From NCBI GenBank assembly GCA_023257625.1, contig JALRBW010000012.1:1-33365 (forward strand): a stretch of 33,365 bases of DNA. Direction: 5' to 3'. Of the stretch, positions 9,240-33,365 are shown in pieces. The position numbers and the translations under genes are program-made. The notes beneath the pieces are model-generated. The model was not told the origin of the DNA. It made no database searches and saw only the letters and a list, made by a program, of their open reading frames with translations. Source of the DNA: Flavobacteriaceae bacterium (lineage in GTDB: Bacteria > Bacteroidota > Bacteroidia > Flavobacteriales > Flavobacteriaceae). Position 1 is the first letter of the stretch, and the number at the start of each line of letters is the position of its first letter.

Positions 9240-9268
9240 AAGTTTTAATACTTTTGAATATAATTTTT

Positions 9269-11627: not shown

Positions 11628-11646
11628 ATGCTTGACATAAAAATTA

Positions 11647-11670
11647 GATTAAATTTAATGATATTTAATC
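11647..11670. promoter_or_regulatory. Perfect inverted repeat in the NIPSNAP/VOC divergent promoter
   Basis: GATTAAAT, an 8-base spacer, then ATTTAATC: a perfect 8-bp inverted repeat in the middle of the 54-base divergent region. Bases 11650-11667 match 17 of 18 positions of 6819-6836 in the Gfo/GH95 divergent region. This is consistent with a dimeric regulator binding both, but the sequence is AT-rich and the evidence is limited to two sites. Confidence 0.4.
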
Positions 11671-11681
11671 ACTGAACCGTC

Positions 11682-16337: not shown

Positions 16338-18382
16338 TTTTGAATAGATAAATAAGTTAGAATCGATTCATCACCAATTAATTCATTTTTTGGACGCTCA
16401 ATAGATGAATATACTTTGAGTTTTTCAGTAGGCAATATAAGGATATCTGTTTCATTATACTCTCCCTTTTTTTGAACTTTATCTTTCTTTAAGTTCAGAT
16501 GCTTAGCCAAAAAATCATATGCCGCAATTCGTTTTGAGACACCGTAATCATGTTTTTCGTTTTTGAGATGTACATTTTTAATTAAATCTTCTTTTGAATA
16601 AAGTGAATAAACTTTAGAAAGATAAGGGAACTCAACTTCAGGCGTGTTTGAAGTCCAGTCAGCACCATCAGATATTATAAGCTGTGGCTTAGGTGCAAAA
16701 GAAGCAGCTATTTCTACATTATTGGTTTGAAAATTTCCTTGTTTATGAATGGGCATACCACTCTCACAAGCACATCCCCCAAAAAAATGAGCAGAAACTT
16801 GTACCACTGGAACACTTACACTTATACGATCATCAAGAGCAGCAAGTATAAAGCTTTGTGTTCCACCTCCTGAAGCTCCTGTTATGCCAATACGTTTTGA
16901 ATCTACATCGTCACGTTGTACTAAATAATCAACAATACTTTTGCTGTTCCATGTTTGGAGCAATAAGGAAATAGGCATTTTATGATTAAGTGTAGTACTT
17001 TCACCATAGCCTACCATGTCATATGAAAAAACAATCGCTCCCATTTTTGCTAACATTGCACATCGGGTCTGAACATCTGCAGAAAAACGTCCTTCATCTC
17101 CATGACCATGTGGGCTTAAAATTGTAGGCATTTTAGACTGTTTTTTCGTTGGCGTATAGAGATTTCCTGTTACATAAAATCCAGGAAAAGTTTCTAATGT
17201 AATATTTTGAACTTGATAGCCATTTTGTACTAAAGGCGCTGAAATCATTATATTTTGTGCCTTTGTAAAAGAGGGAATTTTTGACAATTGCATGCCCTCC
17301 ACTAATTGTTTTTTTATTTGTTGTGTTCTTTCTTCCCATTCCTTTTGATTTGTCCAAAGTTGAGCAAACCTTTTCATTTTTTCTTTTGCTTCTTCCGGAG
17401 TCCAATAAGCGCCTTGACATAATTCTGGAGTAGAATTAAGTTCGGTAATTACATTCACTGTAGTTTCCTTAACCATTCCCATTTGATCTAACCATTGAGC
17501 ACAAGCAGCACTCCAACCCAAGTGGGTGTCGTCAACACCTAATCCATAACCATGTCCCCCAGATCGATATGCATGCATTTCAACAGGTACATTATTTGCT
17601 TTTAATTGTTCTGCATATTCCCAGCTGTTTTCAATAGGTACCGCATTATCATCAAAAGAATGAACTAAAAAGGCTGGGGGTGTATTTTTATTTACTTGTT
17701 TTTCATTTGAATACCAATCAATTTGATCTTGGGATGGATTTTTCCCTAAAAGGTTATCTCTAGAGCCCATATGGGTAATTTCTTGTTGCATTGAAATTAC
17801 AGGATAAATCAGAATTGAAAAATCAGGTCGCGCACTTGAAGTGTCAGTTGGCATATATACTTTTTGGTTGTAATGTGTCGATAAACTTGCAGCTAAATGT
17901 CCTCCAGCAGAAAAGCCAATTACGCCTATTTTTTCGGGATCAATATTCCATTTTACCGCATTTCTTCGAATTGTTCGAAGTCCTTCTTGAGCATCTTGTA
18001 ATGGACCAATTGTTTTATTTTCCATGATCCGATCATCAGGAAGTCTATTTTTTAAAACAAATGCTGAAATGCCAAGACTGTTTAACCATTGTGCAATATT
18101 ATACCCTTCTTTAGTAATGGCTAAAATTCGATACCCTCCTCCCGGGCAAATAAGAACTGCAGCTCCTGATGCTTTTTCTTTTGGGACTAAAAATGCAGTT
18201 AGAGTGGGTATAGAAATTTGACTAACACGTAAAGGTTCACTGTTCTCATCTAGTGTGGTCTGTTCTATAAAAGTAGGGTCATTAATGGCATTTGGAATAG
18301 TATCCCAAAGTGGTAAAACTTCTTGGGCATTAGTCAAATTTAAAGTTAAAACAAAGAAAACTAAGAGAGTGTTTTTTTTCAT
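16334..18382 (-). CDS. Tandem alpha/beta-hydrolase carbohydrate esterase, exported
   Basis: A 682-aa exported protein with two complete alpha/beta-hydrolase domains. Start chosen at 18382 because it gives a clean signal peptide (MKKNTLLVFFVLTLNLTNAQ) and an ATGA overlap with the GH106 stop. Domain 1 (about 60-300) is acetyl-esterase/lipase-like: PGGGY (80-84), nucleophile Ser158 in GFSAGG, Asp244/245 and His277 in GGHGYG. Domain 2 (about 375-630) resembles acetylxylan-esterase/Abhydrolase_7 proteins: SPHGHGDEGR, nucleophile Ser504 in GASGGGT, Asp572 or Asp575, and His611 in KHDYG. Both triads look intact. Inference: removes acyl esters from the glycan so that the rhamnosidase, its upstream neighbour, can act. 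Two nucleophiles suggest two ester positions or types. Confidence 0.88.
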   Translation of the reverse strand: MKKNTLLVFFVLTLNLTNAQEVLPLWDTIPNAINDPTFIEQTTLDENSEPLRVSQISIPTLTAFLVPKEKASGAAVLICPGGGYRILAITKEGYNIAQWLNSLGISAFVLKNRLPDDRIMENKTIGPLQDAQEGLRTIRRNAVKWNIDPEKIGVIGFSAGGHLAASLSTHYNQKVYMPTDTSSARPDFSILIYPVISMQQEITHMGSRDNLLGKNPSQDQIDWYSNEKQVNKNTPPAFLVHSFDDNAVPIENSWEYAEQLKANNVPVEMHAYRSGGHGYGLGVDDTHLGWSAACAQWLDQMGMVKETTVNVITELNSTPELCQGAYWTPEEAKEKMKRFAQLWTNQKEWEERTQQIKKQLVEGMQLSKIPSFTKAQNIMISAPLVQNGYQVQNITLETFPGFYVTGNLYTPTKKQSKMPTILSPHGHGDEGRFSADVQTRCAMLAKMGAIVFSYDMVGYGESTTLNHKMPISLLLQTWNSKSIVDYLVQRDDVDSKRIGITGASGGGTQSFILAALDDRISVSVPVVQVSAHFFGGCACESGMPIHKQGNFQTNNVEIAASFAPKPQLIISDGADWTSNTPEVEFPYLSKVYSLYSKEDLIKNVHLKNEKHDYGVSKRIAAYDFLAKHLNLKKDKVQKKGEYNETDILILPTEKLKVYSSIERPKNELIGDESILTYLSIQK

Positions 18383-21123
18383 TTTGGATTGTATAATGAT
18401 AAGGGTATTAATTTTGGTGGAGTTAATAGTCCTGAAGGGGTAATATCCCAAACACTGGCATCCCACTTTTGATAGTCCTTATTTACCATGTTGATTTCAT
18501 TAAATATAGTCCATACCTCACCTCGTTTTTCTTTAGCACGAACTCTATTAGCCCCCAAGTTTGTAATTTTTAATTCTAAGGTATGATTTCCTGGAGACAA
18601 TTCCTTAAAGTCTAATTCAAATGGGTTTGACCATAAAGTGCCATAATATTTATTGTCTATCCAAACTTCTGCACTTTCTCGAACATCTTCAAGCTGCAAT
18701 CTCCAAAATGGATTACTTTTTTCTGGAATTGAAAATGTTGTTTTATATGAGACTGTTCCTGAAAATTCCTCATATTCTAAATTGATGGATGTCCATGATT
18801 TTAAGGAATCTAATTTTGTTTTAAGAGGTATTATAGGTCCACCTTGGATGGGTTCTAATTGCCAAGGTCCATTAAGGCTTAATTGTGCTGCTGTATCCGT
18901 TTCAAAATATTCCCATGGAGAAGTAGCTAGATCATTTTCAGTCAAAAGTAAAACAGATTCACCTGATTTAAGATTGAGATAAAATTCTTTTCTATTATTA
19001 TTTATTCTAGTAGCAGGTTTGCCATGTATTTCTGTCAATGGATTTAACAGAATTAAAGAGTTACTTTGTGAACGTTCTGATATCCAACCTTTGAATTCAG
19101 TACCCGTATGGTTTACAAGAAAATAAGCATAGCCATTTTTATACGTCCTACGAATAAATTTAATTTGATTTTTTGAAAAAATTTCTGGAATAATCCCTCG
19201 TTCTGAAAAATACTTTGTCCAAGCTTCTCTTGGAATCGTATTGATTTTTGAAGTGTTGAGTAACGAATGTAATTCTTTGGTTTGAGATTCGAATTCTAAC
19301 CACCCTGGAACTGTTTCTGGAGTTCCTTCAAAAACAATATTCGCTCCTTGATTTTGTAATTCAAGTAACTTTTTCATGGTTTTAAGTGGCATGTGAGTTG
19401 TTTTTGGAACAATTATGGCATCATATGAACCTCCTGGTAAATTAATTTTACCTCCGGCAACTAAAGCTTGAGCTAAAAATTGATCCGAGAGGTAATCAAA
19501 ACTATAACCCTCAAATAGTAAGGTTTGAATTGCATCATAAAATGGAGTATGCTTCAACCACGTATCAAGGTCATGAATAGCTAATTGTTGCATCAATCTT
19601 CCCTTGAGAAACTTACCCCAAATATCATGAACTGGCCAGTATAATAAAATTTCATTATCTGGTTTACCTGCTTGTAAAAAAGATTGCACTCTTGTTATAT
19701 AACCAAATAATTCAGGCACATCTGCCCAAATTGTATTTGTAGGGTTAAAATTTACAGAGGCATAGAATTTCCATCCGGGCCATTCTGCTGATTCAGGACT
19801 GTAGGTAGAACCATGTAAAAAAACATGATTGACACCATTTAAGAATAAATCTTCAACTTCAGGCTTACATTGTGACAGTGCAGTTTTAAAATGTTCTCTT
19901 AGCCAGGTAAAGGATTCGGAAGACACTAAAGGTTTACCTGAAATATGAGCAGCAGATGAAGAAAAGCGAAGCATAGCAGGATCTGCATCTCCAGGTCGAA
20001 TATTTTCATCTAAACGACGTAATCCCTTAATGTCAAAAGGCATTGAACCAAAAGTTTCACATTCAGGTATATCAGCAGAGGCATATAAATCAATAAGATT
20101 ACCAGGGGACCCATGAGCTTGTAATCTCGTTTTCATTTCACGCTTATGAGTCCAGTCATTCCATGGTTTTTGAAAGTCATTAATATAAATTTCACTAAGG
20201 GTTTCTCTATAATCTGATTTTATTCGATTTCCAATGGGGTCATCAGTTGCCAAAAAAAGTTTTTGTAAATGGGGTTTTAAATCATATCCCCTTAAATTTT
20301 GAAACGAAGTAAGAAAATCTGGTGTGAAATCCGTTCCATAAACTTCGTAACTGTCATTAAAAATACTTCTAGGTAAAGTTTGAAGAGAATCAAATGCACT
20401 TGTGTATGGAATCAAATATTTAGCTAAGGCCTTGGAGGAATAATGGTCAAGTGTCCACCCAGCGCCCCCAGGTGCTGCTCGTTTTACTTTTTGCAAAGTT
20501 TTATCGGCATACAAAACTATTAGTTCATCAGGAGTTAATTGGGGGTCTAATTGTAAAGTAGTTCCTTTTAATAAGGAAGTTAAATCTGTTGCTTCTCCAT
20601 TTTCAGAAAAAGAAATAATAGCTACTATTTGTAGTGTAATTTTATCTTCGGTTATAGTTTCTTTTAAATCTAAATTTCGCTCTTTTAATGAAGGCCGTTG
20701 AATTCTTTTTATTCTTAGTTTAGTTGCGGCATTTTCTAAATCAACTTGTGGACCGCCAAAGGGCCATCCCGTTCCCAAAGTCATGTCAACACCCATTGAT
20801 AAACTATCTGCAATTTTTAGTGTAAATACCAGATGATCCATCCATTTTGGTGATAAAAAGTCAATGTATTTTTCTTCTAACCCTTGAACTCCATAAATGC
20901 AAGCGATTTCTACTCCTCCAAGCCCTGCTTCATGAAATGCAAGCAACGTTTTACGTATTTCAGCTTTTTCAACAGCGCTTCCTAACCACCACCATCTTGT
21001 CCAGGGTTTGGTTGTTTTATTTATCTCTGGCCAAGGTGATAAAGTCTCATTGGATGAACAATTTGATAATAATAAGATGCTACTTAAACTTATTAATAAT
21101 AGTATGGATTTTAAGCACCTCAT
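18379..21123 (-). CDS. GH106 family alpha-L-rhamnosidase, lipoprotein
   Basis: A 914-aa glycoside hydrolase of family 106, which releases terminal alpha-L-rhamnose with inversion. Seen: lipobox LLSNC (Cys22), then the family's opening TRWWWLGSAVEKAEI, GLGGVEIACIYGVQG and TLGTGWPFGGPQVDLENAA, followed by a TIM-barrel body with SSESFTWLREHF and FLHGSTYSPESAEWPGW. The C-terminal section (about 780-900) is a beta-sandwich with VWIDNKYYGTLWSNPFELD, the galactose-binding-like domain usual here. Surface or periplasmic. It overlaps the esterase downstream and the symporter upstream by 4 bases each. With RhaM at 27075 it makes L-rhamnose a likely product of the locus. Confidence 0.92.
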   Translation of the reverse strand: MRCLKSILLLISLSSILLLSNCSSNETLSPWPEINKTTKPWTRWWWLGSAVEKAEIRKTLLAFHEAGLGGVEIACIYGVQGLEEKYIDFLSPKWMDHLVFTLKIADSLSMGVDMTLGTGWPFGGPQVDLENAATKLRIKRIQRPSLKERNLDLKETITEDKITLQIVAIISFSENGEATDLTSLLKGTTLQLDPQLTPDELIVLYADKTLQKVKRAAPGGAGWTLDHYSSKALAKYLIPYTSAFDSLQTLPRSIFNDSYEVYGTDFTPDFLTSFQNLRGYDLKPHLQKLFLATDDPIGNRIKSDYRETLSEIYINDFQKPWNDWTHKREMKTRLQAHGSPGNLIDLYASADIPECETFGSMPFDIKGLRRLDENIRPGDADPAMLRFSSSAAHISGKPLVSSESFTWLREHFKTALSQCKPEVEDLFLNGVNHVFLHGSTYSPESAEWPGWKFYASVNFNPTNTIWADVPELFGYITRVQSFLQAGKPDNEILLYWPVHDIWGKFLKGRLMQQLAIHDLDTWLKHTPFYDAIQTLLFEGYSFDYLSDQFLAQALVAGGKINLPGGSYDAIIVPKTTHMPLKTMKKLLELQNQGANIVFEGTPETVPGWLEFESQTKELHSLLNTSKINTIPREAWTKYFSERGIIPEIFSKNQIKFIRRTYKNGYAYFLVNHTGTEFKGWISERSQSNSLILLNPLTEIHGKPATRINNNRKEFYLNLKSGESVLLLTENDLATSPWEYFETDTAAQLSLNGPWQLEPIQGGPIIPLKTKLDSLKSWTSINLEYEEFSGTVSYKTTFSIPEKSNPFWRLQLEDVRESAEVWIDNKYYGTLWSNPFELDFKELSPGNHTLELKITNLGANRVRAKEKRGEVWTIFNEINMVNKDYQKWDASVWDITPSGLLTPPKLIPLSLYNPK

Positions 21124-22768: not shown

Positions 22769-23536
22769 TTACAATCGTTGAAGTGTTAAACCCCCATCCA
22801 CTTGAATAACTTGACCGGTAGCATAGGGTAGGGAATGAATTGCTAATGCAGCAGCCACTTTACCTATATCATTAGGCTCACCCCATCGCTTTTGAACTGT
22901 TATGCCTGATGCAAATAGAGCGTCATATTTTGCCTGAACACCAGCCGTCATATCCGTTTTAATCACCCCAGGTTGAATTTCATAAACAGGAATATCATAC
23001 TCACCTAAACGAGCCGCCCACAATTTGGTTGCCATAGCTATTCCCGCTTTAGAAATACAATATTCGCCTCGTTGCGTGGAGGCAACCGTGGCTGAAACCG
23101 ACGATATGTTTATAATTGAAAAAAAATCTTTAGGATAATCCTTTTTTTGTTCAATCATCCAATGGGCTATTTTTTGTGTCAAAAAATAGGGTCCCTTCAA
23201 ATTTGTTTCTAAAACCAAATCGAAATTTTCCTCAGAAGCCACTAAAATATCATCACGAGAAGGAGGTGCTATACCGGCATTATTAACTAAAATATGGAGA
23301 CATCCAAAGGTAGATCGTGCTGTTTCAATCAGTTTTTTGTGTGTTGATGCAGAAGCAATATTACCTTGACAATAAGCCCATTGAACAGTTTTAGGAAATA
23401 CAGTCGATAGAATATTTCGGACCTCTTCTTCTGGGCGCATTCCATTTAATACAAGATGGAACCCTTCACGCGCTAGAGCTATCGCAATTCCCAAACCAAT
23501 TCCTCGAGTTCCCCCAGTGATTGCTGCTACTTTCAT
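22769..23536 (-). CDS. SDR family oxidoreductase (FabG-like fold)
   Basis: Cytoplasmic short-chain dehydrogenase, 255 aa. The start at 23536 puts the first strand of the Rossmann fold at the N-terminus as in the family; an upstream ATG at 23584 would add 16 non-conserved residues and overlap the preceding gene. Seen: TGGTRGIG (7-14), NNAG (85-88), Ser146, Tyr159 and Lys163 (YCISK), and the closing GQVIQVDGGL. Often labelled 3-ketoacyl-ACP reductase, but in a sugar operon it is more likely a sugar or sugar-acid dehydrogenase. A role like KduD (5-keto-KDG to KDG after GH88) is possible but not shown. Confidence 0.88.
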   Translation of the reverse strand: MKVAAITGGTRGIGLGIAIALAREGFHLVLNGMRPEEEVRNILSTVFPKTVQWAYCQGNIASASTHKKLIETARSTFGCLHILVNNAGIAPPSRDDILVASEENFDLVLETNLKGPYFLTQKIAHWMIEQKKDYPKDFFSIINISSVSATVASTQRGEYCISKAGIAMATKLWAARLGEYDIPVYEIQPGVIKTDMTAGVQAKYDALFASGITVQKRWGEPNDIGKVAAALAIHSLPYATGQVIQVDGGLTLQRL

Positions 23537-23538
23537 TT

Positions 23539-24690
23539 TTATGTTTTTAATTCTGGTATTGTTACCCATATTTTTTTCTCCCAACTCTCAATTCCTTTTT
23601 CAGCAAGCTGAACTCCTTTTGCTCCTTCATAGAGGGTCCATGGAAATGGTGTATTTAACACCACATGTTTTAAAAAAAGTTCCCATTGAACCTTAAAGGC
23701 GTTATCGAAATTTTCTTGCTCGGGCATTTTTGACCAGCCTAAATTAAAATCAATAGGATTAGGAATATCCGGATTCCATACAGGTTTCGGTGTATTACCA
23801 TAAGACTGGGTCCAACATTCACGTAACCCAGCTACAGCAGATCCCTTAGTACCGTCAACATGAAGTGTTAACAAGTCATCACGACGAACTCGTGTGGTCC
23901 AAGAAGAGTTAAATTGTGCGATAACTCCATCTTCGAGTTCGAAAATAGCATAGGCAGCATCGTCTGCTGTACATATATATGGTTTTCCATTTTCATCTAT
24001 TCGCTCAGGTATGTGGGTTGCGCCCATACAAAAAACGCCTTTTACCTTCCCAAACAAATGATCTAAGACGTAACGCCAATGACAAAGCATATCTACAATA
24101 ATTCCCCCGTCCTCTTCTTTTCGGTAATTCCAGCTTGGTCGTTGTGCCGGAACAGAATGTCCTTCAAATACCCAATATCCAAAATCACCTCTTACGGAAA
24201 GTATTTTTCCAAAAAAATCATTTTCAATAAGGCGTTTTAATTTTAAAAGTCCGGGAAGCCATAGTTTGTCTTGGACGACTCCATTTTTTACTCCCTTTTT
24301 TTGACATAAAGCAAATAAATCAAGGGCTTGTTGGGTTGAGGTGGCTATCGGTTTTTCACAGTAAATGTGTTTTCCTGCGGCAACAGCTTTTTCAACCGCA
24401 TCGGCTCTGCGCCCGGTGGTTTGGGCATCAAAATAAATAGAATAGGAAGCGTCTTTAAGTACACTTTCTAAATCGGTTGTCCATTTAGAAATCGATGTGC
24501 GTTCAACTAAGGATTTTAATTTTGTCTCATTGCGACCCACCAAAATCACATCGGGCATGATGCGTTCTGAATCATTAATTTGTACGCCACCTTGTTTGAT
24601 AATCGCATCAATGGACCGGATTAAATGTTGATTGGTTCCCATTCTACCCGTTACCCCATTCATAATAATTCCTATAGTATGTACTTTCAT
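23539..24690 (-). CDS. Cytosolic Gfo/Idh/MocA family oxidoreductase
   Basis: NAD(P)-dependent oxidoreductase, 383 aa, without an export signal, unlike the other three Gfo/Idh/MocA proteins in the window. Seen: nucleotide-binding loop GVTGRMG (12-18), [12 protein letters not shown] and EKP (112-114), [10 protein letters not shown], and [20 protein letters not shown] with the family's histidine. An insert of about 25 residues separates strand 1 from the next conserved part (28-52). Inference: acts on the imported substrate inside the cell, together with the isomerase just upstream (34 bases) and the SDR just downstream (2 bases). The exact substrate is unknown. Confidence 0.9.
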
Positions 24691-24724
24691 TTTATTTTTC
24701 CCTATTAATTAATTTTCAAAAAAT

Positions 24725-25555
24725 TTAAGTAGCTGATAAGTAGGCTTTTTTAATTTTCTCTAAATATTGTTTTTGATTCGAATTCCAATGACGTTCAGAA
24801 AACACTTCAACTTCAATAGCACCATAAAAACCTGCTTCTTCAACCCAGGATCGTATTTTTTTCAACTCTATACAACCCTCACCCATTAATCCTCTATCAG
24901 TCAACATATGATTTGTAGGTACTAACCAATCACATACATGAAAAGCAAAAAGATGGTTGTTTTTCCCACATCTTTTTATCTGCTGTTCTAAATATTGATC
25001 CCACCAAACATGATAAACATCTACGGCAACGCCAACCCAAGATGAATTAATAATTTCAGCCAAGGTATTCGCTTCCTCTAAAGTAGTTACTGCAGATTTA
25101 TCACCAGCATACATGGGGTGGAGCGGTTCTATTGCCATCCTTACCCCTGTTTGTTCGGCAATAGGTATCAGTGTTTTTATTGCAGAGGTTATTTGCTCTC
25201 TATTTTTTTTTAAAGATTGTTTAGGGTCTGCCCCACATACCAATACAAGTAATGGAGCGCCTATTGCTTGTGCTTCGTAAAGTGCGTCAATATTTTCTAT
25301 AAGAGCTTGTTCTCTTTTTTCTTTGGAAGTATTTGGAAAAAAACCACCTCTAACTAAAGAAATGACTTCTAAATTATATTGTTCTAATTTTGATTTAACT
25401 ATGTTAAGATCTTTATTTTCTAAAAGATGTCTCCAAATCGATATTTTCTGAATACCTGCTTTTGAATATTCTGAAATACATTGATCTATATCCCATGGTT
25501 TTGTTGTTTGGGAATGGACGCACAAACGAGAAAAATCATTTAAAGGTTGTGCCAT
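24725..25555 (-). CDS. Cytosolic sugar phosphate isomerase/epimerase-like TIM-barrel protein
   Basis: A 276-aa xylose-isomerase-like TIM barrel with no signal peptide. Seen: GIQKISIWRHLL, VLVCGA, the metal-site strand MAIEPLHPM, VAVDVYHVWWD, HVCDWLVPT, GEGCIELKKI and GAIEVEVFSERHW, which carry the usual Glu, Asp, His and Glu ligands. Candidates from the family are isomerase, epimerase, dehydratase (IolE-like) or 3-keto-sugar lyase/hydratase. It is the second gene of the long operon, 2 bases after GH88 and followed by the cytosolic Gfo/Idh/MocA. The pair mirrors the exported TIM/Gfo pair at 4601-6797. Confidence 0.87.
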   Translation of the reverse strand: MAQPLNDFSRLCVHSQTTKPWDIDQCISEYSKAGIQKISIWRHLLENKDLNIVKSKLEQYNLEVISLVRGGFFPNTSKEKREQALIENIDALYEAQAIGAPLLVLVCGADPKQSLKKNREQITSAIKTLIPIAEQTGVRMAIEPLHPMYAGDKSAVTTLEEANTLAEIINSSWVGVAVDVYHVWWDQYLEQQIKRCGKNNHLFAFHVCDWLVPTNHMLTDRGLMGEGCIELKKIRSWVEEAGFYGAIEVEVFSERHWNSNQKQYLEKIKKAYLSAT

Positions 25556-25557
25556 TT

Positions 25558-26946
25558 TTAATTTTTCTTAACGATACAATTATCGAATCGATAATAGGGT
25601 TCTTTATTTATTATTTTCTGAACATACAATGCCAATTCACGCATATGGTAATCGCCCCACATAGAAGATTCATTACATGCAATTTTTTGACCTTTAGGCA
25701 CGTGATCCCATCCGTTAGGTTGGTGATAAATACTATGTAGTAGAATCCCTTGATGATGTTTTTCCTCACTTAGGTATGGCGCTGATAATAAAGTATTTAA
25801 AACTGTTAAACCTGCTTGCCAATACCTTTTTGCCTCTTTTGGATTACGTTCTTTTAAAAAGTGGCCTAAACGAAGTAAACCCTGGGCTCCAATGGCAGCT
25901 GCAGAACTGTCAACGGGTTCCCAATCATTATAGGGATCAGCAGGGTGATCGAGGTAATTACCCAGTTGATGTAAATTCGGTGCTCCAGTATCCCAATAGG
26001 GTATGCCACAGCTAGGCGTGTGGGTAATGTAAAAATCACAAGTGGCTTGAGCCGCCTTTAACATTAACGCTATCATTTGTTCTTTTTCTAAAACAGAAGA
26101 AAAAGCAGCTGAAGGAAGCTCATTTAGCACTTCAAGCTCTTCTGAAAAACCCAACATGGCCCATGCCAGACCCCGTGTCCATGTACTAAACCCTGTATAG
26201 CCTTGTTGTGAATTTGGACATCTGAATTGTCCATCGTTAACATTAAATATACTCTCATGTGCTGTCCTTCCCCAAAGATCGTAACGGTCACGTCCTTCAC
26301 CATAGTATACACTGTACTTTGCTGTACTCTTTATGTGATGCAATGCACGATCTAAAAGTGAAATTTTAGCATCGCCTTCTGAATGATAACGATGCCCTAA
26401 AAGGTGACTGACTACTAATATTCTACAAGAACGAATGGTATCTACAAATAAAGAATGAGGACCGTTAAAAGAATAAATATACCCTCCTTGAGTTAATGGC
26501 GTCCACCGTGAAGCTTGAACAGCTCCTGAGATTTTTAAGGCTAACGTATAAAATTGAGACTCCCAATCATTAGCTTGTATTTTACCTTCGATAGAGAGTC
26601 GCAACAGATTTCCATAGGTACTTAAGTTATTGAATCCATGATCATGAACACCATCATGACTTACGTGGGGGGCCATAAAATCAACCGTTTGATTTCTGCC
26701 TAAATTCAGGAAATCCATATCATTTGTAGCATCAAATTGAAGCAATGCTGAACCGAATTGAAAACCGTGTGTCCATTCAGTCCAACCTCGGGTAGAATAC
26801 TTACCATCAACAGTAAACACTGGAGCCCCGTGTTTGAGATCGAATGAAGAAGCTATGTTATTAATTTTTTCGCCAGATAATTCCCAAAAATGTAAAAGCG
26901 ATTGCGATAGACTTTCCGGAGAAAGATTTTCATTGATTAGAATCAT
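25558..26946 (-). CDS. GH88 family unsaturated glucuronyl hydrolase-like protein
   Basis: A 462-aa (alpha/alpha)6-barrel hydrolase of the GH88 type, which removes the 4,5-unsaturated uronic acid left on oligosaccharides by polysaccharide lyases, by hydrating the double bond. Seen: WTEWTHGFQFG (55-65), HDHGFNN (101-107) with Asp102 at the position of the Bacillus UGL Asp88, Asp169 at the second aspartate (FVDTIR), STWTRGLAWAMLGF, the family's helix motif, and EPVDSSAAAIGAQGLLRL. It has no signal peptide, so it acts in the cytoplasm on imported fragments. It is longer and more divergent than standard GH88, so another uronide is possible. First gene of the long operon, 25 bases from the candidate LacI operator. 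Confidence 0.83.
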   Translation of the reverse strand: MILINENLSPESLSQSLLHFWELSGEKINNIASSFDLKHGAPVFTVDGKYSTRGWTEWTHGFQFGSALLQFDATNDMDFLNLGRNQTVDFMAPHVSHDGVHDHGFNNLSTYGNLLRLSIEGKIQANDWESQFYTLALKISGAVQASRWTPLTQGGYIYSFNGPHSLFVDTIRSCRILVVSHLLGHRYHSEGDAKISLLDRALHHIKSTAKYSVYYGEGRDRYDLWGRTAHESIFNVNDGQFRCPNSQQGYTGFSTWTRGLAWAMLGFSEELEVLNELPSAAFSSVLEKEQMIALMLKAAQATCDFYITHTPSCGIPYWDTGAPNLHQLGNYLDHPADPYNDWEPVDSSAAAIGAQGLLRLGHFLKERNPKEAKRYWQAGLTVLNTLLSAPYLSEEKHHQGILLHSIYHQPNGWDHVPKGQKIACNESSMWGDYHMRELALYVQKIINKEPYYRFDNCIVKKN

Positions 26947-26971: not shown

Positions 26972-26984
26972 CGTTAACGTTAAC
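26972..26984. promoter_or_regulatory. Candidate LacI-family operator
   Basis: CGTTAACGTTAAC contains the perfect 12-bp palindrome GTTAACGTTAAC (26973-26984), centred on CG as LacI-family operators usually are. It lies in the 128-base divergent region between GH88 (minus) and rhaM (plus). Twelve of 13 bases recur at 27480-27492. The likely partner is the LacI protein at 32026. Confidence 0.65.
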
Positions 26985-27074
26985 TAAATTATATATTTTT
27001 ATGAAAAGGAAAAGAAAATTGATATAATTATGTACTTTAAATTACAAATAGTTTTAAATCAATTTTTGAAAATT

Positions 27075-27448: not shown

Positions 27449-27481
27449 TTGTTGAAAATATAAAAGATTTATTTATATTCG
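27449..27481 (+). promoter_or_regulatory. Candidate Bacteroidota-type promoter of the DUF1080 operon
   Basis: TTGTTG (27449-27454), a 19-base spacer, and TATATTCG (27474-27481), which matches the phylum's -7 consensus TAnnTTTG at all but one position. The -33 TTG element and the 19-base spacing are as expected. Transcription would start near 27488, inside the operator-like palindromes at 27480-27501, so a bound repressor would block it. Confidence 0.45.
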
Positions 27482-27501
27482 TTAACGTTCACGTTTAAAC
27501 G
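27480..27501. promoter_or_regulatory. Candidate double LacI-type operator
   Basis: CGTTAACGTTCAC (27480-27492) repeats the site at 26972 with one mismatch. It runs into a second perfect palindrome, CGTTTAAACG (27492-27501). The element sits directly over the predicted start site of the DUF1080 operon, 20 bases before its start codon. Its placement suggests repression by the LacI-family protein at 32026. Confidence 0.6.
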
Positions 27502-27520: not shown

Positions 27521-28903
27521 TTGAAAACAAAACAAACACTTTGGAGTTCGCTTGTGTTATTTGTGGTATGTATACCAATCTTTGCACAAGAGGCGCCGTG
27601 GAAAATTCTTTTTGATGGAAAGAATTTTGATCAATTTATACAACTTAATGGAAATGCTACTTACCTCATTGAAGGGGGGGCTATGGTGGGAATTTCAAAA
27701 TTAAAAACCCCTAATAGCTTTTTAGCTACAAAAGAACTATTTACAGATTTTATTATAGAATTCGAAGTTCTAGTTGATAATGGACTCAATTCTGGGGTTC
27801 AATTTAGAAGCAATAGTTTTCCTGAATTTATGGAGGGGCGAGTTCATGGCTATCAATGTGAAATTGAAACCAGTCCTAGAAAATGGGCAGGAGGGATATA
27901 TGACGAAGCACGCAACGGATGGTTATATCCTTTAACAATCAATCCTACTGGTCAAGAAGCTTTTATTACAGGAGAATGGAATCACTATCGAATAGAAGCT
28001 ATTGGTACAACTATTAGAACCTACATTAATGGAATTCAATGTGCAAACCTTGTTGATTCTACAACTGCAAAAGGGTTTATTGCATTTCAAGTTCATGCTA
28101 TTGGAAATGCTGAAGATGAAGGAAAAAAAGTACGGTGGAAGAACATTAGAATTTTAACTGAAGAACTAGATAAATATCGTAATCCAAATTATGATTACGC
28201 TCCTGAGGTAAGTAATTTAGAAAATACCCTTACCCCAAATGAGATTCGAAAAGGATGGCGATTACTTTGGGATGGAAAATCAACCCAAGGTTGGAGGAGT
28301 GCTAAATCATCCGAATTTCCAAAAAAGGGGTGGGAAATAAAAGATGGAGTATTGAGCGTTTTGGCATCTGATGGAGGTGAATCGTCTAATGGTGGAGATA
28401 TTGTTACTCTAGAAGAATTTTCAAATTTTGAATTGAGTGTTGACTTTAAAATGAGTGAAGGGGCCAATTCAGGTATTAAGTATTTTGTAGATACTGAATT
28501 AAATAAAGGCACAGGGTCTGCTATTGGACTGGAATTTCAAATTTTAGATGACCGTAAACATCCCGATGCCAAAATGGGTAAAAACGGAAATCGAACAGTA
28601 GGCTCATTATATGATTTAATTCGTGCAGAAAACCTTACAACTGGTGGAAGGGGTAAAAACTTTAAAGGAATAGATGTTTGGAATAATGCACGCATTGTTG
28701 TTAAAAATGGTACTGTTGAACATTGGTTAAATCATGTAAAGGTGGTCTCATTTGACCGTTTTAGCCAAACCTTTAAAGCCTTAGTTGAAAAAAGTAAATA
28801 TGAACAATGGGAACAATTTGGACGGCAGCCCTCAGGGCTTATCTTACTTCAAGATCATGGAAATAATGTTTCCTTTAAAAATATAAAAATTAGAGAATTT
28901 TAA
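27521..28903 (+). CDS. Exported double DUF1080 (3-keto-disaccharide hydrolase-like) protein
   Basis: A 460-aa periplasmic or surface protein with two concanavalin-like beta-sandwich domains of PF06439 (DUF1080). Domain 1 covers about 25-212 (WKILFDGKNFDQF ... VRWKNIRIL) and domain 2 about 240-460 (GWRLLWDGKSTQGWRS ... VSFKNIKIREF). The start codon is TTG: it begins the signal peptide MKTKQTLWSSLVLFVVCIPIFAQ, and an in-frame stop (TAA at 27512) lies just upstream. The family is annotated as 3-keto-disaccharide hydrolase, and members are reported to cleave 3-keto-glycosides by elimination. That activity is inferred here. First gene of an operon with a Tat oxidoreductase, a DUF6807 lipoprotein and a second DUF1080 protein. 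Confidence 0.92.
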   Translation: MKTKQTLWSSLVLFVVCIPIFAQEAPWKILFDGKNFDQFIQLNGNATYLIEGGAMVGISKLKTPNSFLATKELFTDFIIEFEVLVDNGLNSGVQFRSNSFPEFMEGRVHGYQCEIETSPRKWAGGIYDEARNGWLYPLTINPTGQEAFITGEWNHYRIEAIGTTIRTYINGIQCANLVDSTTAKGFIAFQVHAIGNAEDEGKKVRWKNIRILTEELDKYRNPNYDYAPEVSNLENTLTPNEIRKGWRLLWDGKSTQGWRSAKSSEFPKKGWEIKDGVLSVLASDGGESSNGGDIVTLEEFSNFELSVDFKMSEGANSGIKYFVDTELNKGTGSAIGLEFQILDDRKHPDAKMGKNGNRTVGSLYDLIRAENLTTGGRGKNFKGIDVWNNARIVVKNGTVEHWLNHVKVVSFDRFSQTFKALVEKSKYEQWEQFGRQPSGLILLQDHGNNVSFKNIKIREF

Positions 28904-28923
28904 ACTTTGTAATTATTTTGAAA

Positions 28924-30285
28924 ATGGACAAAACAAGAAGAAATTTTATTAAAAAAACCTCCCTAGTTACGGGTGGATTAACCTTTGGGATAGCCTCGGG
29001 TTTGTCGGCAAAAAGCTACCGAAAAATACTTGGTTCTAATGATCGAGTAAGAGTTGGAATTGTTGGATTTTCTAACCGTGCTAAAGGTGCTCTTATTCCT
29101 GCGTTTGTAGGACATCAGAAGAAAATGAATTTTGAAATCGTTGGGGTATCAGATATCTGGAACCGTAGACGAGATGAAGGTTCAGCTTACATTAAAGAGA
29201 AAGCTGGAAATAATGTTACAACTTGGCGAAATAATGAGGAGATGTATGATGATAATAAAATCGATGCAGTTATCATTTCAACTGCTGACTTTCAACATGC
29301 ACTTCATACCGTTCAAGCTGCAAATGCAAAAAAAGACGCTTATGTTGAAAAGCCATTTGCAGAAACTATGGAAGATGCTCGTTTAGGTCGTAAGGCAGTT
29401 GAAGAATCAGGAATTATTTTTCAAATAGGGTCGCAACGTCGTAGTGGCGCAAATTATCATGCCGCCAATAAATTTATCAAATCAGGACAATTTGGTGATA
29501 TTGTAATGGTAGAAATGTCCTGGAATGTAAACCAACCGGGACGTTGGAGGTTACCTAAACTTACAAGTGAAATTAAGGAATCTGATACAGATTGGAAACG
29601 CTATTTAATGAATCGACCTTATGAGCCTTGGGATCCCCGTAAATATTTAGAGTATCGTCTCTTTTGGCCTTACTCATCAGGGATTCCAGGTCAATGGATG
29701 TCACATCAAATTGATACCGTTCATTGGTTTTCAGGATTAAATCATCCAAGAAGTGTAGCTGCCAATGGAGGTATCTACCTATGGAAAGATGGTAGAAAGA
29801 ATTTTGATACTATGACATCTGTTTTTGAATATGGTCCTTCAGATGATTTGGAAAAAGGATTTCAGGTAGTGTATTCCTCTCGTTTTACAAACTCTGCAGG
29901 AGGAACAAAGGAAATATATTATTCTAATGGTGGCGAATTAAATCTTGATACCAATAAAGTTACTTCTAATGGAGGGCTTTCTGCTGGACAGGCTAGACAA
30001 ATGGGTATGAATTCAAATTTATTGAATGATTATGATCTAAGTGAAAGTGACGTTAAGGTCGTAACCTCAGCTGATACTGGAGCAGATAATATGACATCCA
30101 TGCATATGTTGAATTGGATGGAATGCGTTAGAAGTAGAGCAAAAACAAATGGGCCCATTGAAGCTGGTTATAATCATTCTATTGCTAATATAATGACTAC
30201 TGCAGCTTTACGAACAGGACTTAAAGCTACTTTCGATGAGCAAAATCAAGAGGTCCTTGCAGGAGGTAAAGTATTTCAATATTAA
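28924..30285 (+). CDS. Tat-exported Gfo/Idh/MocA family oxidoreductase
   Basis: NAD(P)-dependent oxidoreductase, 453 aa from the ATG at 28924; an in-frame TTG at 28918 would add two residues. Seen: twin-arginine leader TRRNFIKK (4-11), Rossmann loop GIVGFSNRAKG (45-55), STADFQHA (119-126) and EKPFAETM (142-149), then the C-terminal domain with WMSHQIDTVHWFSG, carrying the histidine typical of the family. It is 20 bases after the double DUF1080 gene. Oxidising a glycoside hydroxyl to a ketone next to DUF1080 proteins is the arrangement expected for the 3-keto-glycoside route. The direction and substrate are inferred. Confidence 0.92.
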   Translation: MDKTRRNFIKKTSLVTGGLTFGIASGLSAKSYRKILGSNDRVRVGIVGFSNRAKGALIPAFVGHQKKMNFEIVGVSDIWNRRRDEGSAYIKEKAGNNVTTWRNNEEMYDDNKIDAVIISTADFQHALHTVQAANAKKDAYVEKPFAETMEDARLGRKAVEESGIIFQIGSQRRSGANYHAANKFIKSGQFGDIVMVEMSWNVNQPGRWRLPKLTSEIKESDTDWKRYLMNRPYEPWDPRKYLEYRLFWPYSSGIPGQWMSHQIDTVHWFSGLNHPRSVAANGGIYLWKDGRKNFDTMTSVFEYGPSDDLEKGFQVVYSSRFTNSAGGTKEIYYSNGGELNLDTNKVTSNGGLSAGQARQMGMNSNLLNDYDLSESDVKVVTSADTGADNMTSMHMLNWMECVRSRAKTNGPIEAGYNHSIANIMTTAALRTGLKATFDEQNQEVLAGGKVFQY

Positions 30286-30303
30286 ATTTTATTAAAGTTA
30301 ATT

Positions 30304-31350
30304 ATGAGAAAAATTGTTGGACTCATTTTCATATCTACATTTCTAATAAGTTGTCAAAATCAAACTTCTAAAAAAGAAAGTAATTCAGATAATGTAATGT
30401 CAGAAACTGTAATTCAAATAGTCCCTGATGATGAAAATCAAAAAGTAGATATAGTAATTGATGGATCACTTTTTACGAGTTACCTCTACACAGATGCCTA
30501 CTACAAACCCGTACTCTATCCTCTAATAACAGCTAATGGCAAAACACTAACGCGAGGTTTTCCTGTTTCGCCAAAAGGGGGTGAAAGGGTAGATCATCCA
30601 CACCATGTAGGGTATTGGTTAAATTATGGCGATGTGAATGGTTTGGATTTTTGGAATCATTCTGATGCTATCCCGTTGGATAAAAAAGAAGGTTATGGTA
30701 CTGTTTTTCACAGCGCATACAGTATCGGTAATGATCAAAAATCGCTTTTAGTAAAAACCGAATGGAAAGCTCCTTCTGGGGAAATTTTACTTGAAGAAAA
30801 TACTGTTTTTGAATTTTCTGTTCAAGGAGCTAATCGAATTATAGATAGAACCACTACTCTGCTTGCAAAAACTGAGATTTCTTTAAAAGACAATAAAGAA
30901 GGTTTTGTCGCAATTCGCGTAACACGTGCTTTAGAACACCCTAGCAATAAACCAGAAGTATTTACAGATGCCAATGGTATTCCAAGTGAGGTTAAAGTTT
31001 TAAATAACGATGGCGTAACAGGAAATTATTTAAGCGCTAATGGTCTAACAGGAGAGGAAGTTTGGGGTACAAGAGCTCCATGGGTTGCACTTAATGGAAG
31101 GGTAGAAGATCAAGCTGTAGCAATAACCATTATAGATCACCCAGAAAATTTAGGGTACCCTACCTATTGGCATGCTAGAGGCTATGGCCTTTTTGCTGCG
31201 AATCCTTTAGGTCAAGAAGTATTTTCCGAAGGTGCTGAAGTGCTTAATGCCTCAATTTCCACTGGAGAATCATTAACTTTTAAATACCGAATAGTAATTA
31301 GCGATCAAAATATGGATGCTACAACTATTGCTCCATTTGAAAAGTTTTAA
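30304..31350 (+). CDS. DUF6807 (PmoA-like) family lipoprotein
   Basis: A 348-aa lipoprotein (MRKIVGLIFISTFLISC, Cys17) of the DUF6807 family. Seen: the histidine-rich HPHHVGYWLNYGDVNGLDFWNH, RTTTLLAKT, GFVAIRVTRALEH, EEVWGTRAPWVALNG and IIDHPENLGYPTYWHARGYGLFAANPLG, all typical of the family, forming a beta-sandwich resembling sugar-mutarotase folds. Database names such as 'methane oxygenase PmoA' are misleading; it has nothing of the methane monooxygenase subunit. Function unknown. It is 18 bases after the oxidoreductase gene and 10 before the second DUF1080 gene, so it should work with them at the outer membrane. The conserved histidines suggest a metal or sugar site. Confidence 0.85.
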   Translation: MRKIVGLIFISTFLISCQNQTSKKESNSDNVMSETVIQIVPDDENQKVDIVIDGSLFTSYLYTDAYYKPVLYPLITANGKTLTRGFPVSPKGGERVDHPHHVGYWLNYGDVNGLDFWNHSDAIPLDKKEGYGTVFHSAYSIGNDQKSLLVKTEWKAPSGEILLEENTVFEFSVQGANRIIDRTTTLLAKTEISLKDNKEGFVAIRVTRALEHPSNKPEVFTDANGIPSEVKVLNNDGVTGNYLSANGLTGEEVWGTRAPWVALNGRVEDQAVAITIIDHPENLGYPTYWHARGYGLFAANPLGQEVFSEGAEVLNASISTGESLTFKYRIVISDQNMDATTIAPFEKF

Positions 31351-31360
31351 AATTTATTAA

Positions 31361-31969
31361 ATGAAAAAAACACATGTAATCTTATTCCTGTTCACCATTG
31401 TAATGGGATTTAGCCAAGAACAGTTCTCAAACAAACATCTTATTTTTTCAGGTGAAAATTTTAAAAATTGGACGGTTCCTGAAAATAACATCTGGTGGTC
31501 TATTTCTAATAATGGAGAATTGGAAGCCAAAAGTGATCCTAACGAAACGGGATCTACTTTATGGAGCTCAGAATCATATTCAGACTTTGTTATGCGTTTA
31601 GAATTTAAAATGGGAGAAGGAGTTGTAGATTCTGGTGTCTTTATTCGTGGAGAAAATCCTCAAAATCCTCAGATTCAAATTGGAATTTCAGGTTCTTTGA
31701 AAAGAGACATGACTGCTTCACCTTATGTGCCCGGTCAAGGGTATCCTGTAGAAGCATTAAAAAATCATACAAATGTCCTAAAACCTAACGATTGGAATAC
31801 AATGGAAATTAAAGCGGTTAAAAATCTTTATGAAGTTTGGTTAAATGGTGTAGCCGTTTTGAATTACTCCCTAGAAAATGCTAATTTAAAAGGGCCTGTT
31901 GGACTTCAATTACATCCAGGCAGGAAAATGGATATTAAGTTTAAAAATATTTATCTAAAACGTCTATAA
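31361..31969 (+). CDS. Exported single-domain DUF1080 protein
   Basis: A 202-aa secreted protein with one PF06439 domain. Seen: signal peptide MKKTHVILFLFTIVMGFSQ, then HLIFSGENFKNWTVPENNIWWS, NGELEAKSD, GVVDSGVFIRGENPQIQIGIS-like segments (spread over about 85-115), NDWNTMEIKAV, YEVWLNGVAVLNY and GPVGLQLHPGRKMDIKFKNIYL, which cover the complete domain. Same proposed role as the double protein at 27521: eliminative cleavage of a 3-keto-glycoside, or binding. Last gene of the four-gene operon before LacI, with 56 bases between them. Confidence 0.9.
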   Translation: MKKTHVILFLFTIVMGFSQEQFSNKHLIFSGENFKNWTVPENNIWWSISNNGELEAKSDPNETGSTLWSSESYSDFVMRLEFKMGEGVVDSGVFIRGENPQNPQIQIGISGSLKRDMTASPYVPGQGYPVEALKNHTNVLKPNDWNTMEIKAVKNLYEVWLNGVAVLNYSLENANLKGPVGLQLHPGRKMDIKFKNIYLKRL

Positions 31970-31992: not shown

Positions 31993-32018
31993 ATTCAAAA
32001 TAGAAAACTATTTTGAAT
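31993..32018. repeat. Perfect 11-bp inverted repeat just before lacI-type gene
   Basis: ATTCAAAATAG, loop AAAA, then CTATTTTGAAT, followed by TTTT. It ends 8 bases before the ATG of the LacI-family gene. It could be a weak terminator of the DUF1080 operon, an autoregulatory operator, or an RNA hairpin over the ribosome site. The stem has only two G-C pairs per arm. Confidence 0.55.
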
Positions 32019-32025
32019 TTTTAAA

Positions 32026-33078
32026 ATGAATAAATCGGTAGGCATTAAAGAAATAGCTGAACTGGCTGGAGTTTCTATAGGCACAGTAGATCGTGTATTG
32101 CATAATAGACCAGGAGTTTCAAAAAAAACTTCGCTTTTAATTCATGATGTAATTAAAAAAACTGGATATAAAAAAAATAATGCAGCTAGTAGGTTAAAAT
32201 TAGCGCAATACAATAAAATAAAAATTGCTGTTCTTTTGCCAATAGAATCATTACTTAAAGAGCACTATTGGTTTTTACCATTAAAAGGAATACAAACTGC
32301 TGTTCAGGAGTTGGTTGATTATGGTGTTAATTATACTTTATTAACTTTTAAAATGTCAGATGCTCAATCGTTTGAAAATCAAGTTCAAACCATAACTCAA
32401 TCCGATTTTAATGCAATTATAACAGTACCTTACTTCTACAACGAGAGTAGAACTTTGCTTCAAGAAGCAAAGAAAATTAAAATACCAGTTGTTTTTATTG
32501 ATACGCATCAAGAATTTAATGAAGATAATTATTCGATTTTTCAAGATTCACATAAAAGCGGTACAGTTGCAGCTAGAATTTTACACCGTATTATTGGTGA
32601 TAAAGGAAACTATCTTGTTATCAATTTAAACAATAAGAATACCGAAGTTCAAGATAACATGAAAAAAAGAGAGGAAGGATTTCGGTCATACTTTTTAAAT
32701 AATAAAAAATCAATATTATCAAAAATTGAAACCTTAAGCACAAATGTCAAAAATTTAAATGTTTTTAATTTAAAGCTTCAGGACCTTTTAAAATCAAATG
32801 AAAACCTTGGAATTTTTGTGACAAATTCAAGAGCCTATTTACTTCCACCTTTACTGTCTAGCGAACAATTTAAAAATGTAACTCTGGTGGGGTATGACCT
32901 CAATGAGCGAAATCTCAATCTTTTAAAAGAAGATAAAATCCATTTTTTGTTACATCAGCAGCCTGAAAATCAAGGATATAATGCTGCTAAAGGATTGTTT
33001 AAATTACTCACTGAAAATGAAGATAACTCACTTCACTTAACCATACCAGTAGAAATTTTTATAAAAGAAAATTTATAA
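32026..33078 (+). CDS. LacI-family transcriptional regulator
   Basis: A 350-aa DNA-binding regulator. Seen: N-terminal LacI helix-turn-helix IKEIAELAGVSIGTVDRVLHNRPGVS (in pieces over residues 7-32) with the TVDRVL form, hinge region SRLKLA (55-60), then a periplasmic-binding-protein-like effector domain (about 65-350, Periplas_BP_4 type) with IKIAVLLPIE and FVTNSRAYLLPP. Cytoplasmic. Likely controls the GH88 operon, rhaM and the DUF1080 operon through the CGTTAACGTT sites at 26972 and 27480. The effector is probably a sugar or sugar acid from the pathway. It lies at the end of the plus-strand group and is followed by a strong terminator. Confidence 0.93.
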   Translation: MNKSVGIKEIAELAGVSIGTVDRVLHNRPGVSKKTSLLIHDVIKKTGYKKNNAASRLKLAQYNKIKIAVLLPIESLLKEHYWFLPLKGIQTAVQELVDYGVNYTLLTFKMSDAQSFENQVQTITQSDFNAIITVPYFYNESRTLLQEAKKIKIPVVFIDTHQEFNEDNYSIFQDSHKSGTVAARILHRIIGDKGNYLVINLNNKNTEVQDNMKKREEGFRSYFLNNKKSILSKIETLSTNVKNLNVFNLKLQDLLKSNENLGIFVTNSRAYLLPPLLSSEQFKNVTLVGYDLNERNLNLLKEDKIHFLLHQQPENQGYNAAKGLFKLLTENEDNSLHLTIPVEIFIKENL

Positions 33079-33151: not shown

Positions 33152-33365
33152 CTATTGAGTATATCCTGGATTTTGAGGATATCCCCCTTCTGTTCTATCA
33201 ATTTGATCTAAAGGAATAGGTCTCAAAACGTGATGCGCTTGAATATTCCCAGCAGCATCTGAATTGTTAGCTTTAACACGATCTATTAACTTTCCTGTAC
33301 GCACTAAATCAAACCAACGGTGTCCCTCACCTATGAGTTCTCTTGCACGCTCATCTAATATAAAA
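33152..33365 (-). CDS. RagB/SusD family glycan-binding lipoprotein, C-terminal end (partial)
   Basis: The last 70 codons of a SusD-like protein; the rest is beyond the right edge. Seen on the minus strand: ERARELIGEGHRWFDLVRTG, the hallmark C-terminal motif of the family, then LRPIPLDQIDRT and the terminal QNPGYTQ before the TAG at 33152-33154. SusD proteins are surface lipoproteins that hand glycan to the partner SusC TonB-dependent transporter, whose gene is normally just upstream, outside this window. This establishes the region as a polysaccharide utilisation locus. No start or signal is visible. Confidence 0.95.
   Translation of the reverse strand, partial: FILDERARELIGEGHRWFDLVRTGKLIDRVKANNSDAAGNIQAHHVLRPIPLDQIDRTEGGYPQNPGYTQ

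Follow-up and report, generated by a model that had tools for sequence, protein, structure and literature searches.

The closest described counterpart of the locus analysed here is the BT2156–BT2160 cluster of Bacteroides thetaiotaomicron, which combines a Gfo/Idh/MocA dehydrogenase with a DUF1080 hydrolase and in which BT2156 is presumably an AP_endonuc_2 protein. BT2158 is described as a periplasmic glycoside 3-dehydrogenase (PMC11300592) and BT2157 as a 3-ketotrehalose hydrolase (PMC9007349). Deletion of BT2157 or BT2158 is reported to cause no growth defect on raffinose-family sugars (PMC11501099), a hint at possible redundancy of clusters of this kind. The present analysis concerns four consecutive genes for two DUF1080 proteins, a Gfo/Idh/MocA oxidoreductase and a predicted DUF6807 lipoprotein (the module) in a 33,365-nucleotide stretch from a Flavobacteriaceae bacterium (GCA_023257625.1, JALRBW010000012.1), termed the window. 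The window is an entire contig (C40) of a draft genome of 1.93 Mb that is 91% complete.

Two further systems are related in chemistry. In Caulobacter, the periplasmic DUF1080 protein CCNA_01705 has been proposed as a 3'-ketolactose hydrolase (PMC9007349). Extracytoplasmic C3 oxidation and subsequent cleavage by DUF1080, as proposed there, would resemble the window module, but the Caulobacter dehydrogenase is the membrane-bound LacABC instead of a Gfo/Idh/MocA protein, and DUF6807 is not mentioned in the accessible text of PMC9007349. In Agrobacterium, AtOGE acts by C3 oxidation and then beta-elimination by a TIM-barrel protein (PMC10628242). The O- and C-glycoside eliminases (AtOGE, CGE) have C3 oxidation in common with the proposed module, and the window does encode an exported AP_endonuc_2 protein (4601–5428), but this TIM-barrel gene lies outside the module operon and no DUF family appears in the accessible text of PMC10628242.

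Compared with BT2156–BT2160, the module has a dehydrogenase from a different subfamily (84.8 bits against a cut-off of 750; see below), spreads its DUF1080 domains over one two-domain and one single-domain protein, and includes DUF6807. The window-type operator connects it with uronate genes and not with disaccharides. No AP_endonuc_2 partner is present in the operon; the exported one at 4601–5428 and a leaderless one at 24725–25555 are encoded elsewhere in the window. With about even confidence, we favour the reading that the module is a single LacI-controlled operon whose products, with the help of an oxidation step, cleave glycosides of hexuronates (most probably glucuronides) outside the cytoplasm and so supply the Uxa/Uxu pathway.

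Organisation and conservation of the module

The module and the features following it are listed below.

27521–28903, + strand: two-domain DUF1080 protein, predicted to be exported (PF06439 in two stretches, 8.2e-81)
28918–30285, + strand: Gfo/Idh/MocA oxidoreductase (PF01408) of twin-arginine translocation (Tat) type, starting with RRNFIKK
30304–31350, + strand: predicted DUF6807 lipoprotein (PF14100, 2.2e-72; lipobox LISC)
31361–31969, + strand: one-domain DUF1080 protein, predicted to be exported (PF06439, 8.3e-28)
31993–32018, + strand: terminator-like hairpin and T run between module and lacI (z-score -4.88)
32026–33078, + strand: LacI-family regulator with a Peripla_BP_4 domain (Pfam)
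33155–33365, − strand: C-terminal 70 residues of a SusD-family protein, the gene being truncated by the contig end

The four open reading frames (ORFs), whose coordinates are exact, lie on the + strand with gaps of 14, 18 and 10 bp and encode, together with the dehydrogenase, three DUF1080 domains, all over the Pfam cut-off. All four proteins carry export-type N-termini, as judged from their sequences: those of both DUF1080 proteins are hydrophobic leaders with Gln directly after the leader end, and leaders ending before Gln are described by the Bacteroidetes Q-rule (PMC5837995). A TatC gene is present in the genome. For the oxidoreductase, the ATG at 28924 may be the true start in place of the listed TTG, as it is in the same-genus locus L062. 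ORFs, Pfam matches and N-termini thus agree with the operon composition given in an earlier reading of the DNA from its letters alone (the sequence-only reading).

The four-gene order is kept in all seven other distinct same-genus loci with this oxidoreductase. The lacI gene follows in six of these, the contig of L066 ending before its position. Outside the genus, 21 distinct orthologues of the oxidoreductase (61–79% identical) were found; within two same-strand genes of them lies a DUF1080 gene in 14 loci, a DUF6807 gene in nine, both in three and neither in one (L163, where the orthologue adjoins the glucuronate isomerase gene uxaC). The corresponding background, taken from genes at least five genes from any anchor in the same loci, is 0/156 for a DUF1080 neighbour. 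Starting from DUF6807, a Gfo/Idh/MocA gene stands within two same-strand genes of 24 of the 34 distinct DUF6807 genes outside the genus (background 16/156), and of all 16 inside it, long and short forms included.

At the genome level, PF14100 is present in 39/296 Bacteroidota genomes searched, and among 60 relatives searched it occurs in 12, all within the 36 genomes of the same genus. In the 295 other Bacteroidota genomes, the oxidoreductase is found in 17, a strong DUF6807 match in 14 and a two-domain DUF1080 protein in 54. The oxidoreductase co-occurs with two-domain DUF1080 in 14/17 genomes and with strong DUF6807 in 9/17, and strong DUF6807 with two-domain DUF1080 in 12/14, phylogeny being ignored in these counts. 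The strong DUF6807 set has best E-values of 1.1e-120 to 4.3e-91, and seven genomes with weak matches are left out of it.

Several features of the procedure define these numbers. Genes in the loci were labelled by BLAST or by hidden Markov models built from the window proteins and their neighbours, with Pfam confirmation for part of them. ORFs came from a simple caller, and the row for L175 is missing because a spurious opposite-strand ORF hid its DUF6807 match. The larger neighbourhoods cover all 17 non-window oxidoreductase matches; of the 79 DUF6807 matches they cover some, taken from the top of the ranking. L068–L073 were found via DUF6807 and so favour this family in the counts, and a 127-aa oxidoreductase fragment in L069 was left out of the 28 orthologues.

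Beside the outside-genus oxidoreductase, DUF1080 and DUF6807 are nearly exclusive (11 loci with DUF1080 only, six with DUF6807 only, three with both, one with neither; Fisher p 0.016, in a test that ignores phylogeny). The idea that DUF6807 substitutes for DUF1080 was dropped, because all five genomes checked among those with no DUF1080 gene next to the oxidoreductase (G134, G251, G156, G183 and G207; those of L070 and L073 were left out) hold two-domain DUF1080 homologues elsewhere, with 48–53% identity.

Operator and link to hexuronate genes

The sequence-only reading had placed the operon under a likely LacI operator and assigned it to a rhamnose- or uronate-rich glycan. The operator and the uronate genes of the window are as follows.

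27474–27493, + strand: module operator with core CGTTAACGTTCACG at 27480–27493, assigned from position and conservation
26972–26985, − strand: second operator copy with one mismatch, between a divergent GH88-like operon and rhaM
12119–13300, − strand: mannonate dehydratase UxuA (over the curated cut-off)
13314–14117, − strand: short-chain dehydrogenase/reductase (SDR) over the curated cut-off for D-mannonate oxidoreductase
14127–15320, − strand: second Tat-type Gfo/Idh/MocA protein, encoded divergently next to the module in relatives of the genus

The core CGTTAACGTTCACG ends 27 bp ahead of the listed start of the first module gene. The overlapping TATATTCG (27474–27481) is, we presume, close to the Bacteroidota -7 element. 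With one mismatch allowed, TTAACGTTMACG has six matches at four places in the window versus 0.19 expected, two of these places being within the GH88-like gene. Genome-wide, CGTTAACGTTMACG with at most one mismatch occurs at two places, 26972 and 27480, both in the window.

A copy of the operator lies directly 5' of the first module gene in all eight distinct loci (the window, L062–L067 and L093), and lacI follows the module, in line with the LacI operator proposed before. In five of six relatives (L063–L067) this copy, TTCGTTAACGTTAACGAA, is an 18-bp perfect palindrome; the window copy is an imperfect one and was not picked up by the palindrome scan. The four genes probably form a co-regulated unit under LacI control. 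The lacI gene, the putative operator and the SusD C-terminus in the window, together with whole SusC/SusD genes in relatives, are what a LacI-regulated polysaccharide utilization locus (PUL) comprises.

In L063, L064, L066, L067 and L093, the module operator is common to a divergent operon of a Tat-type Gfo/Idh/MocA protein and an SDR, the latter being 74–77% identical to the window mannonate oxidoreductase. UxuA follows this operon in L063, L064 and L093, the three loci whose contigs continue. A second perfect operator copy lies between SusC and UxaC in L063, L064, L065 and L093 (all four holding this stretch; L065 via its twin L096), SusC-type receptors and UxaC in relatives having been identified by Pfam. 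Because in relatives the mannonate oxidoreductase operon and the promoter of SusC and glucuronate isomerase have this operator in common with the module, its likeliest role is to cleave glycans containing hexuronates outside the cytoplasm. Within uxaC itself, some 0.54 kb away from the copy between SusC and UxaC, there is a further operator-like copy with one or two mismatches (L063:18095, L064:18092, L065:11024 and L093:1979), possibly an auxiliary operator.

Behind UxaC in L096, taken from its length to be the contig of L065, Pfam matches indicate a PfkB kinase, a 2-keto-3-deoxy-6-phosphogluconate (KDPG) aldolase, a tripartite ATP-independent periplasmic (TRAP) transporter, and proteins of mannitol-dehydrogenase type and altronate-dehydratase type; both hexuronate branches are therefore nearby. 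In the genome of the window, contig C2 ends in a PfkB gene after genes for KDPG aldolase, TRAP, mannitol-dehydrogenase-type and altronate-dehydratase-type proteins. As C40 ends in SusD, the stretch with UxaC and SusC seems to fall between these two contigs.

The two parts of the substrate assignment thus fared differently. The uronate context stands, supported by the operator shared in relatives, and uronate genes accompany the module in the other same-genus loci fetched. Rhamnose as a general substrate was rejected: among those loci, none but the window and L062 have rhaM and the GH88-like operon together with the module, a lineage-specific arrangement. Outside the genus, a GH88-like operon adjoins the oxidoreductase in L073.

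Proteins of the module and proposed mechanism

The two-domain DUF1080 protein aligns over residues 26–459 with the solved two-domain structure 4jqt (E 1.9e-162), a close relative whose record bears only the name 'putative glycosyl hydrolase'. Its domain 2 has E338, Q340, H347, D349, Y364, D365 and Q444-D-H-G in common with solved relatives, with the motifs EFQ/EYQ-x-LD, HPDAK, SLYD and QDHG shared with 8v31, 3osd and 8rr2; a structure named 3-keto-disaccharide hydrolase is among the solved relatives with these residues. Across 20 two-domain homologues, each of these positions deviates in one sequence at most (an alignment of 22 rows in which the window is counted twice). In a residue comparison, this set is absent from domain 1 and from the one-domain protein, so that hydrolase activity of this sort is probably confined to a single one of the three domains; that the shared residues (E-x-Q, HPDAK, SLYD, QDHG) are catalytic is an assumption. 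Alternatively, the module might be no more than an ordinary accessory operon of a PUL, in which the DUF1080 proteins are conventional binding modules or hydrolases and the oxidoreductase and DUF6807 act in an unrelated step. The family also contains an endo-xanthanase and its annotation is based on few characterised proteins (PMC9007349), which would suit this alternative, but conservation, co-occurrence and fusions of the components across several families of the phylum make it improbable.

The best NCBIfam match of the oxidoreductase is BT_2158_fam (NF058561), at 84.8 bits versus a cut-off of 750, and it scores 33.9 bits against the BT_2159 family (NF058563; cut-off 650). Membership in either family is ruled out by these curated cut-offs, so the comparison with BT2156–BT2160-type loci proposed in the sequence-only reading sets the protein apart. 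Four closer BT2158-like proteins (306–459 bits, none over the cut-off) are encoded elsewhere in the genome, two on C8 and one each on C42 and C66, and those at C8:8470–9786 and C42:10883–12310 directly adjoin DUF1080 genes. By this comparison, the window module is a divergent, separately regulated line. In an alignment of 18 sequences, K145 (EKP motif), H263 and H269 do not vary, and solved relatives include glucose-fructose and aldose-aldose oxidoreductases. The AlphaFold2 (AF2) model of the oxidoreductase (pLDDT 51.8) was set aside as too poor for a fold search.

Enzymes of family GH109 use a single active site to oxidise the substrate, eliminate, add water and reduce again. The oxidoreductase might likewise be a self-contained NAD-dependent glycosidase, with DUF1080 and DUF6807 binding or trimming other parts of the glycan; Tat export with bound cofactor would fit, and so would the two of three DUF1080 domains without the domain 2 residues. 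This is unlikely, since no entry named glycosidase is found among its solved-structure and NCBIfam matches (a comparison of names), and since a DUF1080 or DUF6807 neighbour, needless for such an enzyme, is kept in 20/21 outside-genus orthologues.

The window DUF6807 protein scores 244.4 bits against a curated cut-off of 27, and the core residues of the family are present. In an alignment of 47 sequences, the most distant being 20% identical, D97, H98, H100, W105, D115, W117, E165 and R205 are each kept in at least 46, and the extended set D97-H98-x-H100-x-x-G103-x-W105, D115-F116-W117, E165, R205, W260 and N282 in at least 45. This invariant core looks like an active site. No solved relative was found by sequence, and none of its relatives were found in viral contigs. 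The AF2 model (pLDDT 79.3, pTM 0.80) matches galactose mutarotases, GH36, OpgD and YidC with a Foldseek probability of 1.00 but TM-scores of at most 0.44 among the 50 matches listed; its fold class is likely galactose-mutarotase-like. The L062 protein is 87% identical to that of the window.

Gene fusions join DUF6807 to its presumed partners. A DUF1080-DUF6807 fusion (L079:8055–9644) is 50% and 48% identical in its parts to the fourth and third window proteins, respectively, and DUF6807-ThuA fusions occur at L167:6414–8426, L168:2672–4282 (gene cut by the contig end) and L172:5403–7403. ThuA is linked to 3-keto-trehalose. By conservation and fusions, DUF6807 is integral to the module, bearing out its earlier designation as an undescribed component. 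A second, long form, about 25% identical and flanked by two Gfo/Idh/MocA genes, is encoded at 26108–26944 (− strand) of C2 and at L091:10770–11969; in G012, G021 and G033 one contig carries both forms, separated by about 18 kb.

The mutarotase-like fold predicted for DUF6807 and the glucose-fructose and aldose-aldose oxidoreductases among the solved relatives would also suit a module for free sugars, in which an aldose (or aldose-aldose) oxidoreductase receives the right anomer from a DUF6807 mutarotase and DUF1080 binds carbohydrate. We give this little credence: the operator-sharing genes run through UxaC and mannonate, needing a uronate unoxidised at C1, the domain 2 residues are shared with the structure named 3-keto-disaccharide hydrolase, and DUF6807 is fused to DUF1080 and ThuA.

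In the favoured reading of oxidation-assisted hexuronate glycoside cleavage, glycan fragments would enter via SusC/SusD, which are adjacent in relatives. The Tat-exported oxidoreductase, with an NAD(P) cofactor, would oxidise C3 of the uronosyl unit, as its family suggests, and domain 2 of the two-domain DUF1080 protein would cleave the activated 3-keto-glycosidic bond, with domain 1 and the small DUF1080 protein as binding or degenerate domains. The 3-keto sugar might be the substrate of the DUF6807 lipoprotein, working as an anomerase, epimerase or lyase with a galactose-mutarotase-like fold, after which an oxidoreductase would restore the keto group to a hydroxyl. The free uronate would then be imported, possibly by the TRAP transporter seen in relatives, and converted by UxaC, mannonate oxidoreductase and mannonate dehydratase to 2-keto-3-deoxygluconate (KDG).

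Several observations weigh against this reading. The oxidoreductase scores far below the BT_2158 and BT_2159 cut-offs, so that assigning C3 oxidation to it is a long extrapolation, and the classical route may already be covered by the closer BT2158 relatives in the genome. The DUF1080 family extends to an endo-xanthanase, as noted above. Ten of the 34 outside-genus DUF6807 genes are without a same-strand Gfo/Idh/MocA gene within two genes, and the short DUF6807 occurs in only 7/36 same-genus genomes searched, many of them incomplete. The genome count of CGTTAACGTTMACG equals that of a reversed-pattern control (four strand hits each), so that the case for the operator rests on place and conservation, and a pattern scan with up to one mismatch finds no copy ahead of UxuA in the window's own genome. 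Also, in L107 and L108 of the same genus, the corresponding place is without this oxidoreductase, the short DUF6807, the one-domain DUF1080 protein and lacI. A same-strand run there (L107:8150–17716, − strand) contains a two-domain DUF1080 protein, another Tat-type Gfo/Idh/MocA protein, UxaC, TRAP genes, the long-form DUF6807 and a further Gfo/Idh/MocA gene. Parts of the module are therefore replaceable. The run itself counts in favour of the reading, in that it unites DUF1080, a predicted exported oxidoreductase, DUF6807 and glucuronate isomerase.

The comparative evidence supports the earlier proposal of an exported module of oxidative (3-keto) type, probably co-regulated; its extracytoplasmic site is not new, because BT2158 has already been described as periplasmic (PMC11300592) and a periplasmic DUF1080 hydrolase has been proposed (PMC9007349). 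As far as the literature was searched, the tie of an oxidative module to the hexuronate regulon and that of DUF6807 to 3-keto chemistry seem new. A literature search that covered few subscription papers found nothing on 3-keto-uronates and, among the papers listed (15 of 30 in one of the searches), no functional paper on DUF6807, PF14100 or PmoA, nor any mention of the two kinds of fusion; DUF6807 occurs as a number in PMC10971088, and PF14100 appears in PMC10291797. If the reading is true, DUF6807, of 'unknown function' in Pfam, would receive a first functional frame, and oxidative cleavage, known for disaccharides, would be extended to glycans with uronates, an abundant part of the polysaccharides of algae and plants. 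Direct and cheap tests are possible with the fusions and the operator.

Other genes of the window

The window encodes further proteins of similar families.

4601–5428, + strand: AP_endonuc_2 TIM-barrel protein, predicted to be exported (best solved relatives 8tcd, 8tcs and 8tct)
5421–6797, − strand: third Tat-type Gfo/Idh/MocA protein (135.9 bits to BT_2158_fam, cut-off 750)
10143–10883, + strand: ThuA-domain protein, predicted to be exported
10884–12122: NIPSNAP and VOC (glyoxalase-fold) proteins, both with leaders for export and syntenic with the module in loci of the genus
22769–23584, − strand: SDR of the divergent GH88-like operon, behind the second operator copy
23539–24690, − strand: Gfo/Idh/MocA protein of the same operon
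24725–25555, − strand: AP_endonuc_2 protein of the same operon
25558–26946, − strand: GH88-like protein of the same operon

Several of the genes for the exported AP_endonuc_2, the second and third Tat-type Gfo/Idh/MocA, the ThuA, the NIPSNAP and the VOC proteins are in conserved synteny with the module within the genus. The 8tc/8td structure entries, we assume, belong to the work on BT2156–BT2159. A broader proposal, tentative at best, would make DUF6807 a new family of enzymes acting on 3-keto sugars and the whole window a periplasmic oxidative uronide PUL replacing lyases or beta-glucuronidases. Together with DUF6807, its three Tat-type Gfo/Idh/MocA proteins, exported AP_endonuc_2, ThuA, NIPSNAP and VOC proteins and three DUF1080 domains would then cleave 3-keto-uronosides and recycle them extracytoplasmically.

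The proteins of the divergent GH88-like operon (22769–26946) have no evident signal peptides. Its Gfo/Idh/MocA protein has an unusual Rossmann N-terminus, the Pfam match beginning only at profile position 29. The ORFs for an esterase (16334–18466) and a GH106 protein (18379–21123) share 88 bp (18379–18466), and because of this overlap the true esterase start is probably further in. A myo-inositol oxygenase with no evident export leader is encoded at 9254–10132 of the same contig; known myo-inositol oxygenases yield glucuronate.

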